Source of the DNA: Clostridia bacterium
GTDB taxonomy: Bacteria > UBA6262 > WVXT01 > JAUXBS01
Direction of reading: 5' to 3'
Length of the DNA stretch: 11,131 nucleotides
NCBI GenBank assembly: GCA_030618495.1
Contig: JAUXDE010000054.1
Location: forward strand, 1 to 11,131
In this document: in pieces, positions 3,386-7,174 of the stretch
Position numbering within the stretch: position 1 is the stretch's first letter
Layout: the number at the start of each line of letters is the position of its first letter
Translations under genes and position numbers: made by a program
Notes under the pieces: model-generated
What the model was told of the DNA's origin: nothing
Database searches by the model: none
The model's input: only the letters and a program-made list of their open reading frames with translations

Positions 3386-3387
3386 GA

Positions 3388-3516
3388 GAATTTGGGGACA
3401 CGTACCTTGGAATTTGGGGACACGTACCTAATTATTTCTTATACTAAAGAATTGTTCAGCATTATGTTTTTTTATAATAATTAGGTACGTGTCCCCAAAT
3501 TCTTTGTCCCCAAATT
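3388..3516. repeat. Short inverted-repeat element between purQ and purD (REP/MITE-like)
   Basis: Two identical 20-nt direct copies of GAATTTGGGGACACGTACCT lie at 3388-3407 and 3410-3429. A reverse-complement copy lies at 3483-3502, and a truncated 12-nt copy (TGTCCCCAAATT) at 3505-3516. The inner pair forms a perfect 27-bp inverted repeat. The element fills nearly all of the 139-nt gap and reaches the purQ stop codon at 3516-3518. It has no coding capacity. The GGGGACA...GTCCCC architecture resembles dispersed REP-type repeats that I recall from environmental genomes, sometimes near IS200-like (RAYT) transposases. That link is from memory and cannot be tested here. A non-autonomous insertion is the best guess. 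Confidence 0.8.
3410..3502 (-). other. Perfect 27-bp inverted repeat with 39-nt AT-rich loop
   Basis: Bases 3410-3436 are exactly complementary to 3476-3502, leaving a loop at 3437-3475. In the purQ-purD transcript this would form a long stable stem. No run of U follows it directly, so it is not a canonical Rho-independent terminator. It might still cause partial attenuation, RNA processing or 3'-end protection of the upstream message (inference). Confidence 0.75.
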
Positions 3517-4307
3517 TATTTGTTAGTTTTGGCATACTCTACAGCGTTTTTAAATATCATCAGCCCGTCGCCTTCCTCGGGAAGTTTTTCCCTTTGCCAG
3601 CGCGGGTGATGGTATTTTACAGTGTATCTCTCAGGATGGGGCATCATCCCTAAAACATTGCCCTGTGGGTTGGAAATACCCGCAATGGCCTCCACTGAAC
3701 CATTGGGGTTGAAAGGATATATGGGTTCCTCACCCTTTTCGTTTACGTAATGAAAGACCAGCTGGTTGTTATCTTTTAATCTTCCAAGAACATTATCATC
3801 TTTAACGACAAATTTTCCCTCAGCATGGGCAACAGGCAGGTAAATCATATCATTAAGGCCTTCCAAGAACAATGATTTATTATTATTGTTTTTCTTAAGC
3901 CAAACCCACCTGCATTCAAACCTGCCCGAATCATTGGATGTCAGGGTTACTTTTTGCTCACCGTCAACAACTTCGAATCCCGGCAGTACGCCAACCTTTA
4001 CCAGCACTTGAAACCCGTTGCATATCCCTATTACCGGTTTCCCCGAAGATACGAACATTCTTATATCTTCGTAGAGTTTATGTTTCAATTCATTTGCCAG
4101 TATCTTACCCGCTGCCACGTCATCCCCGTAAGAAAACCCTCCCGGGACAGCAAGTATATCATAATCGGCAAGCCTTCTCTGTTTTTCAAACAGCCTGTTT
4201 ATATGGACTAACTCCGGGTTTCCGCCTGCGGTTTTGAAAGCATGATATGTCTCTATATCGCAATTGGTCCCTGCCGTCCTTAATACTATTACCTTCGGAT
4301 TATCCAT
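3516..4307 (-). CDS. purQ: Phosphoribosylformylglycinamidine synthase subunit PurQ (glutaminase)
   Basis: Class I glutamine amidotransferase subunit of FGAM synthase: hydrolyses glutamine and passes ammonia to PurL in the PurS/PurQ/PurL complex (fourth step of purine synthesis). Seen: N-terminal VIVLRTAGTNCDIET (6-20), PGGFSYGDDVAAGKI (55-69), the nucleophile elbow GICNGFQVL with Cys96 (94-102), the PVAHAEGKF segment (158-166), and the catalytic pair in MMPHPERY (221-228), His224 and Glu226. At 263 residues it is longer than the roughly 227-residue form typical of Bacillus; the longer form occurs in other lineages. The ATG is 6 nt after the purL stop and I see no convincing SD motif (upstream GGTAGAAATAA), so translation probably depends on coupling to purL. 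The stop codon touches the repeat element. Confidence 0.97.
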   Translation of the reverse strand: MDNPKVIVLRTAGTNCDIETYHAFKTAGGNPELVHINRLFEKQRRLADYDILAVPGGFSYGDDVAAGKILANELKHKLYEDIRMFVSSGKPVIGICNGFQVLVKVGVLPGFEVVDGEQKVTLTSNDSGRFECRWVWLKKNNNNKSLFLEGLNDMIYLPVAHAEGKFVVKDDNVLGRLKDNNQLVFHYVNEKGEEPIYPFNPNGSVEAIAGISNPQGNVLGMMPHPERYTVKYHHPRWQREKLPEEGDGLMIFKNAVEYAKTNK

Positions 4308-4313
4308 TTATTT

Positions 4314-6701
4314 CTACCACGCGAGCGTCCTCTTCCATGAATCCTTAAGTTCTTTCAGTTCCTCCTCAATCACCACATTCCTTTCAAGCCCGCGTACGAC
4401 AAAAAACCCTTTCCCTGTCGTTTCGCCTATCGGCGCAAAAACATTTCCCGCCATGATTCTCTCGAACTCCCCGCTGTTCTTTTTTGATACTTCAACGATA
4501 AAACGGCTATTGGATTCGGAAAAAAGAAGAATTTCATCGCTCTTGCAATCTTCCGCGCGCGGGATTTTATTCAAATCTATTTCCATGCCGATTTCACCGG
4601 CAAAGGACGCTTCCGCGCATGCAATCCCTATGCCCCCTTCCGAACAATCATGACAGGATAGCGCGTATCCTCCGGATATCGCGGAACTCAAAGAATCCAT
4701 CAATTTTTTCGCTTTTACGGGTTCAACCTTCGGGACATTTCGTCCCACAAGTCCGCGCAGACCATAATAATGCGACCCACCAAGTTCATTCTTTGTTTCA
4801 CCAACTATGTATACCAGGCTCCCTTCTTCCTTTATGTCCATTGATAGCGTTTGCTTAATATCATCTATCACGCACATCGCGGAAATCAGAAGAGTCGGGG
4901 GAATTGAAATCCTCTTGCCTGAACTATTAACGTATTCATTGTTCAGGCTGTCCTTACCCGATATGAACGGGGTACCGTAGACCTTAGCCATATCATAGCA
5001 TGCCTTTGCGGCGCGAACGAGCCCCGCAAGCTGTCCGGGTTTCTGCGGGTCACCCCAGCAGAAATTATCTAACAACGCTGTCTTTTTAAGGTTCCCGCCG
5101 ACGCAGATAACGTTGCGCAGGGACTCATCTATAGCGGACGCAGCCATCCAGTAAGGATCTATGGTTCCATACCTGGGATTGATACCGTTTGAAACTACAA
5201 CACCCTTTTCTGAATTAAACAAGGGCTTCACCACGGCGGCGTCTCCGGGTCCGTCGTTTAACTTCCCCTGGAGGGGTTTTATAACAGTACCCGCCTGCAC
5301 TTCGTGGTCGTACTGCCTGATAATCCATTCCTTACTGCATACATTGGGACTTGCCAGTATACCCTTAAGGTCTTCAGATAGGCCTTTCGCGCTCCTTATT
5401 TTATCCCTGTCAGGTTCCTCAATACGCGGTTCCTGCCACTCCGCCTTCCTTCTGCCCCTCGGAATCCCCCCATGGAGGAACTTCATATCAATTGCCGCAA
5501 CCGTTTGCCCCTTGTACATAATGTGCAGTTTCCTTGTGTTGGTGAACTTCCCGATAACCGTTGCCTCAACATCCTCGGAAGCAAATATTTCCATGATAGC
5601 TTCAAGGTTCTCGGGCGGAACCGCAATCACCATTCTTTCCTGCGCTTCCGAAACCCATATCTCCCAGGGGGCAAGGCCATCATACTTTAAAGGCGCTTTT
5701 TCAAGGTACACCTCCACGCCGCAGTCTCCGCCAAGCTCACCCACCGCAGATGAAAATCCTCCCGCGCCGCAGTCTGTTATTGACCTGTAAAGGCCCCTGT
5801 TTTCCGCCTCAAGAATAGTGTCCGTTACCTTCTTTTCCATGATAGGGTTGCCTATCTGGACAGCGCTGACCTCTGTATCTTCATCAAGGCTTAAGGAAGA
5901 AAACGTTGCGCCATGTATCCCGTCCCTGCCCGTCCTTCCTCCGACAGAGACTACCAGGTCTCCCGTTTTTACCTGTTTCTTTATCTTTGTCCCGGACATT
6001 ATACCCACCGTACCGCAATAAACCAGCGGGTTACACACGTACCCCTCATCAAAGAACACCGAACCATTCACCGTAGGTATCCCCATGCGGTTTCCGTAAT
6101 CCCTTACGCCGGCGACAACTCCCTTGCATATTCTTTTCGGGTGGAGTACACCCTTTGGCAACTTATCAAAATCATAATCCGGAGGCCCGAAACAAAAGAC
6201 ATCCGTGTTTAGAATGGGCTTTGCCCCGAGCCCCACTCCCAGGATGTCCCTTATAACCCCTCCGATTCCCGTACCGGCGCCGCCATATGGCTCCAGCGCG
6301 GACGGATGATTATGCGTTTCAACCTTAAAAGCCACGGCAAAATCATCATCAAATGAAATAATCCCCGCATTGTCCTTGAACACTGAAAGGCACCAGTCCT
6401 TATCCAGTTCCTTTGTGACTTTCATAACCGTCTGTTTCAGCAGGTTGTCGATGATTTCAGTGCCGTCTTTTGTTTTATACTCTATAAGTCCCGTAAAAAC
6501 CTTGTGCTTGCAATGCTCGGACCAGGTCTGGGCAATCGTTTCAAGTTCCACGTCCGTGGGATTCCTGCCAAGCTTCCGGAAATATCCCCTTACGGCCCTC
6601 ATCTCCTCAATGCTCAACGATAAAAGGTAATCCTTGCTTATCTTAATAAGTCTTTTATCCCTGGCTTTAACGAGATTAATTATTTTCAGCATTTTTGGCA
6701 C
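4314..6701 (-). CDS. purL: Phosphoribosylformylglycinamidine synthase subunit PurL
   Basis: Synthetase subunit of FGAM synthase (FGAR + ATP + ammonia to FGAM); two PurM-like halves. Seen: linker motif GRNPTDVELETIAQTWSEHC (45-64) followed by KHKVF, the substrate/ATP block ETHNHPSALEPYGGAGTGIG (128-147), NGSVFFDEG, SDCGAGG-type motif ITDCGAGGFSSAVGELGG, the second-half FISGKDSLNNEY, and HDCSEGGIGIACAEA near the C-terminus. At 795 residues it is the small PurL class, which lacks the glutaminase domain (supplied by purQ). The start chosen is GTG at 6699-6701, preceded by AGGGGT with a 7-nt spacer. An in-frame ATG at 6690-6692 is the alternative but has no SD nearby. The gene overlaps purS by 16 nt in the -1 frame relative to it. 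Related lineages carry PurS and PurL as one PurSL chain; see findings. Confidence 0.97.
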   Translation of the reverse strand: MPKMLKIINLVKARDKRLIKISKDYLLSLSIEEMRAVRGYFRKLGRNPTDVELETIAQTWSEHCKHKVFTGLIEYKTKDGTEIIDNLLKQTVMKVTKELDKDWCLSVFKDNAGIISFDDDFAVAFKVETHNHPSALEPYGGAGTGIGGVIRDILGVGLGAKPILNTDVFCFGPPDYDFDKLPKGVLHPKRICKGVVAGVRDYGNRMGIPTVNGSVFFDEGYVCNPLVYCGTVGIMSGTKIKKQVKTGDLVVSVGGRTGRDGIHGATFSSLSLDEDTEVSAVQIGNPIMEKKVTDTILEAENRGLYRSITDCGAGGFSSAVGELGGDCGVEVYLEKAPLKYDGLAPWEIWVSEAQERMVIAVPPENLEAIMEIFASEDVEATVIGKFTNTRKLHIMYKGQTVAAIDMKFLHGGIPRGRRKAEWQEPRIEEPDRDKIRSAKGLSEDLKGILASPNVCSKEWIIRQYDHEVQAGTVIKPLQGKLNDGPGDAAVVKPLFNSEKGVVVSNGINPRYGTIDPYWMAASAIDESLRNVICVGGNLKKTALLDNFCWGDPQKPGQLAGLVRAAKACYDMAKVYGTPFISGKDSLNNEYVNSSGKRISIPPTLLISAMCVIDDIKQTLSMDIKEEGSLVYIVGETKNELGGSHYYGLRGLVGRNVPKVEPVKAKKLMDSLSSAISGGYALSCHDCSEGGIGIACAEASFAGEIGMEIDLNKIPRAEDCKSDEILLFSESNSRFIVEVSKKNSGEFERIMAGNVFAPIGETTGKGFFVVRGLERNVVIEEELKELKDSWKRTLAW

Positions 6702-7174
6702 GCACTTACCCCTACACTGTAATCCTGAATAACGCTATTAGCGAGAAGTGACCGACATATTTTCTCAATATCCTTATCGGAAAGCTCACCTGTAAACCTG
6801 TACCTGACTCCCGTTTTTACCGACCGGGTTCCATCTATACCCAGGTCTCTTATGCCGAGCTTCACGCTCTCGCCAACCGCATCCGTAACACCATTCTTAT
6901 AGAATACATCCGCGCTGGATTTCTTTCCATCCGATTTCTCCCGGCTGTCCTTTTTATCATTAACCCTATACCATTGTATAACCGGGTCCGAAAGAAGGTC
7001 CCTACAAATGATATTCACATTTTTTTCATCCAGATTCCCGTCAATCCGGTAAAGCAGTTCCGTCTTTACCGACTCAACATTTTTTATGCCCAAGTCCTCT
7101 ATGTCTTTTATAACAACGTCACCCAGGGCATCCTTCACCCCGTCAATATATCCTATTTCAATATAATATTCCAT
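6686..7174 (-). CDS. purS: Tandem-domain PurS subunit of phosphoribosylformylglycinamidine synthase
   Basis: PurS is the small bridging subunit that holds PurQ and PurL together in FGAM synthase. A usual PurS has about 80 residues; this protein has 162 and contains two copies. Residues 8-71 and 91-154 align without gaps, with 31 of 64 identical positions by hand count. Shared elements include GV.DA.G, I.DLGI, SVKT, the ICR.LL block and VIQ.Y. A charged Lys/Ser/Asp linker (72-88) joins them. The second copy (FYKNGVTDAVGES...RDLGIDG) resembles the second PurS domain at the N-terminus of fused PurSL proteins as I recall them. The ATG is 7 nt after the purC stop, with a weak AAGGGA 10 nt upstream. 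The end overlaps purL by 16 nt. An assembly error or frameshift splitting a PurSL fusion is possible at the A5 run at 6691-6695. Confidence 0.9.
   Translation of the reverse strand: MEYYIEIGYIDGVKDALGDVVIKDIEDLGIKNVESVKTELLYRIDGNLDEKNVNIICRDLLSDPVIQWYRVNDKKDSREKSDGKKSSADVFYKNGVTDAVGESVKLGIRDLGIDGTRSVKTGVRYRFTGELSDKDIEKICRSLLANSVIQDYSVGVSACQKC
6708..6713 (-). promoter_or_regulatory. Probable ribosome binding site of purL, within purS
   Basis: AGGGGT lies 6 to 7 nt before the GTG at 6699-6701 and about 15 nt before the ATG at 6690-6692, favouring the GTG. It is only a moderate match to the SD consensus and could be a chance feature of the purS coding sequence. Confidence 0.45.

Follow-up and report, generated by a model that had tools for sequence, protein, structure and literature searches.

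The purS and purL genes of this Clostridia bacterium are almost certainly two intact, separate genes within one purine operon. They share 16 nt in the -1 phase and encode subunits whose translation is probably coupled. Within the window, an 11,131-nt stretch (contig JAUXDE010000054.1 of assembly GCA_030618495.1), the minus strand carries purS (7174..6686; 162 aa), with two tandem PurS domains, and purL (6701..4314; 795 aa counted from GTG 6701), the FGAM synthase subunit PurL. At its 3' end, purS reads GTA GGG GTA AGT GCG TGC CAA AAA TGC TGA (V G V S A C Q K C stop). The 5' end of purL reads GTG CCA AAA ATG CTG AAA ATA ATT from its GTG codon, in the -1 frame relative to purS. The start of one gene and the stop of the other thus overlap on the same strand, as in coupled pairs, and the shared segment (6686..6701) contains a run of five A residues (6692..6696; T5 on the plus strand of the assembled sequence). 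A Shine-Dalgarno-like sequence of presumed function, AGGGGT (6713..6708), lies 6 nt upstream of GTG 6701. An alternative start at ATG 6692 would give a PurL of 792 aa and reduce the overlap to 7 nt.

Both proteins matched their respective families over their full length. PurS matched PF02700 in two stretches (E-value 6.5e-23), with each copy above the cut-off. PurL exceeded the TIGR01736 cut-off with 646 bits and contained PF18072, PF00586, and PF02769, with an FGAR-AT linker domain near its N-terminus. All predicted operon genes in the window lie on the minus strand and, from reading of their translations, occur in the transcription order nrdD-like, dut, guaB-like, purC, purS, purL, purQ, purD, purE, purM, and purN. 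The purQ-like ORF (3516-4307, minus strand), assigned only by reading its translation, is the next gene downstream of purL. The operon therefore encodes intact, separate purS, purL, and purQ, as in a separate-subunit FGAM synthase, with the first two identified by family models and purQ by its translation. A second ordinary overlap occurs in the same operon, where purD and purE share 11 nt (2093-2103).

The region between purD and purQ also holds a palindromic repeat element (3387-3516), consisting of two copies of GAATTTGGGGACACGTACCT and a 27-nt perfect inverted copy. The sequence GGGGACACGTACC was present 36 times in the genome of the window, mostly as close inverted pairs, and had zero copies in the other species of the genus and in the other four genomes of the phylum. 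The sole Y1_Tnp match of the genome (G000:C61:1466-1789) is flanked by inverted copies of the repeat at C61:1156 and C61:1963. Together, the repeat and this gene look like a REP element with a TnpA_REP-type gene.

Translational coupling would operate simply at this junction. A ribosome terminating purS at its TGA codon would be close enough to reinitiate at the GTG or at ATG 6692, and AGGGGT would help reinitiation at the purL start. Both FGAM synthase subunits would then probably be made together. Overlapping gene pairs are widespread in prokaryotes, with strict coupling in 13 of 14 tested (PMC6728339), and subunits of heteromeric complexes are enriched in short overlaps (PMC10666635). As the 16 nt here exceed the usual 1 or 4 nt, the efficiency of coupling at this junction is uncertain. 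When the subunits are separate, FGAM synthase is formed by PurS, PurL, and PurQ, and PurS resembles the N-terminal domain of large PurL (PMC3261824). We infer that the products of this operon assemble into such a PurS-PurL-PurQ complex, in which the tandem PurS is probably the one-chain equivalent of the PurS dimer. As an overlapping pair, purS-purL is an ordinary arrangement. Among the papers listed by a literature search, none contained 'PurSL' as a whole word.

An earlier note on this DNA had described the two genes as one base short of a single fused gene. An added base inside the overlap would indeed join the two frames, although the A5 run occupies 6692-6696 rather than 6691-6695 as given there. 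However, a single indel suffices to fuse any overlapping pair, because both frames are by definition open across a gene overlap. A crude ORF caller, which gives approximate counts, was run on ten other contigs of the genome and on the window. Of 70 same-strand neighbour pairs, 35 had a downstream frame open past the upstream stop, such that one indel would join the genes; five of these pairs lie in the window. Genes overlapped outright in 20-23 of the 70. Short homopolymers were likewise frequent: in the window, A or T runs of five, six, and seven bases numbered 28, 12, and 5, respectively. Since joinability is shared by half of the sampled pairs and A5/T5 runs are common, the property described is unremarkable. 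We caution that being one base from a fusion fits every overlapping gene pair and is no evidence of a broken fusion.

In the single other species of the genus compared (G001), the gene neighbourhood and order are the same, and PurL and PurS are 78% and 60% identical to those of the window, respectively. The earlier note had proposed comparing the junction in close relatives, and the outcome spoke against a broken fusion. The G001 junction reads ATT ATT TCG GGA TAG GTGCC ATG TCA AAA, with purS closed by TAG, a 5-nt gap, and purL opening with ATG. No A5 run was present at this purS-purL junction. The two PurL proteins align from residue 1, and the ATG of G001 aligns without gaps with GTG 6701. 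GTG 6701 is thus the likely purL start, as judged from this one relative. Past the shared VIQDY, the PurS tails of the two species differ, as expected for a free C-terminus.

We scored 92 related loci for whether tandem PurS was in frame with PurL. Fusions were common among Omnitrophota, Latescibacterota, Planctomycetota, Chloroflexota, deltaproteobacterial lineages, and Methanoperedens, which bears out the statement in the earlier note that tandem PurS is the type present in natural PurSL fusions. In a 91-row PurL tree, the window fell within a 19-row clade (SH-aLRT 98) with Firestonebacteria and Elusimicrobia/Endomicrobia. Separate purS and purL genes are present in every one of the 19 members. 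Their junctions vary from short overlaps (ATGA, GTGA, TTGA) to gaps of more than 200 nt. Thirteen of the 19 show the geometry described here, with a purL frame that differs from the purS frame and stays open beyond the purS stop. A careful 38-row tree kept this clade (98/98) and added further Elusimicrobia, also split; one fused sequence, L073, was placed inside it with weak support. As the two-gene state is shared throughout the clade, any split long predates the species of the window, and a split private to that species is unlikely. On the PurL trees, whose root is not fixed, either the split or the fused state may be the older. Of modest interest as a side result, tandem PurS was found in two settings, fused to PurL or encoded by a gene of its own, with the split form being the rule in one clade (the genus of the window, Firestonebacteria, and Elusimicrobia/Endomicrobia).

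The survey also revealed other arrangements. In a purS gene of Firestonebacteria (L033:2647-2991; approximately 114 codons), only one PurS domain was seen; the neighbouring PurL is of the type that accompanies tandem PurS. PurL proteins of approximately 800-825 aa with no detected adjacent PurS occurred in Poribacteria and in G044 (L003, L038, L040, L041, L043, L047, and L097). Four genomes from another family of the same order had no PF02700 PurS match, and their PurL was only 33-34% identical to that of the window, compared with approximately 60% for PurL of distant phyla. This pattern points to gene transfer or gene replacement inside the order.

These data bear on the three explanations that had been offered for the junction. 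One holds that a homopolymer sequencing or assembly error shortened a true A6 run and so hid a single fused purSL gene. The geometry permits such an error, and fused PurSL proteins with tandem PurS are real and common in other phyla. The domain content of the window is also that of a fusion, with tandem PurS followed by PurL with its linker domain. The reading frame, however, is not single, as purS is closed by TGA 6688-6686 and purL is read in the -1 frame. Apart from this, the two ORFs are intact, purL has a plausible start codon preceded by a Shine-Dalgarno-like sequence, and the A5 run is of a short and common kind. The earlier note had also proposed asking whether the linker matches that of natural fusions without a gap, and it does not. 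Counted from where the second PurS domain ends (residue 150) up to PurL residue 15, the linker spans 29-46 residues (median of 33) in 43 natural PurSL fusions; the hypothetical joined protein would have 23, below the minimum of 29. With the congener and all other members of the 19-row clade also having separate genes at differing junctions, we regard an error at the A run as very improbable.

A second explanation is that a fused purSL gene truly split, and did so recently, in the lineage of the window. In its favour, fusions occur commonly in other parts of the family, and 3-4 changes between the fused and split states were counted by parsimony on the PurL trees. The coupled translation that the earlier note attached to this scenario is plausible given the AGGGGT before the GTG; a recent date for the split is not supported, as the two-gene state is common to the congener, Firestonebacteria, and Elusimicrobia of the same supported clade. 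A recent split is thus exceedingly doubtful. The third explanation is -1 slippage on the A run, programmed or incidental, which would yield some PurSL fusion beside separate PurS. It has a mechanical basis, in that AAA in the P site can pair again with AAA once the ribosome has slipped by -1, which leads to ATG in the frame of purL. Neither a conserved slippery heptamer nor a stimulatory structure, the marks of programmed -1 frameshifting, was found. In the zero frame the heptamer is C CAA AAA, which departs from X XXY YYZ. The congener lacks the run, the junctions of relatives did not show it either, and the fold of the downstream 79 nt is unremarkable (z of -1.36; 18 of 200 shuffles were as good). 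Programmed or incidental slippage of this kind is therefore extremely unlikely. There is likewise only the slightest chance that AAAAA permits a low level of -1 slippage, adding a small amount of PurSL fusion protein to separate PurS and PurL.

As two separate genes, purS and purL resemble several known systems. Like the three-subunit PurS/smPurL/PurQ FGAM synthase of the Bacillus type (PMC3261824), the window encodes separate purS, purL, and purQ in one operon, with a PurL that passes the TIGR01736 cut-off. Unlike that system, in which PurS has one domain and fewer than 100 aa, its PurS is a two-domain tandem of 162 aa. Tandem PurS together with PurL is shared with the fused PurSL proteins (approximately 950-1050 aa) of Omnitrophota, Latescibacterota, Planctomycetota, Chloroflexota, Methanoperedens, and others, whose PurL portions are 50-62% identical, but the window has two genes and lacks a linker of matching length. 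The same-strand, -1 phase overlap between subunits of one complex is that of overlapping coupled pairs (PMC6728339, PMC10666635). Whereas the commonest of such pairs overlap by 4 or 1 nt, purS and purL overlap by 16 nt, or by 7 nt when counted from the ATG.
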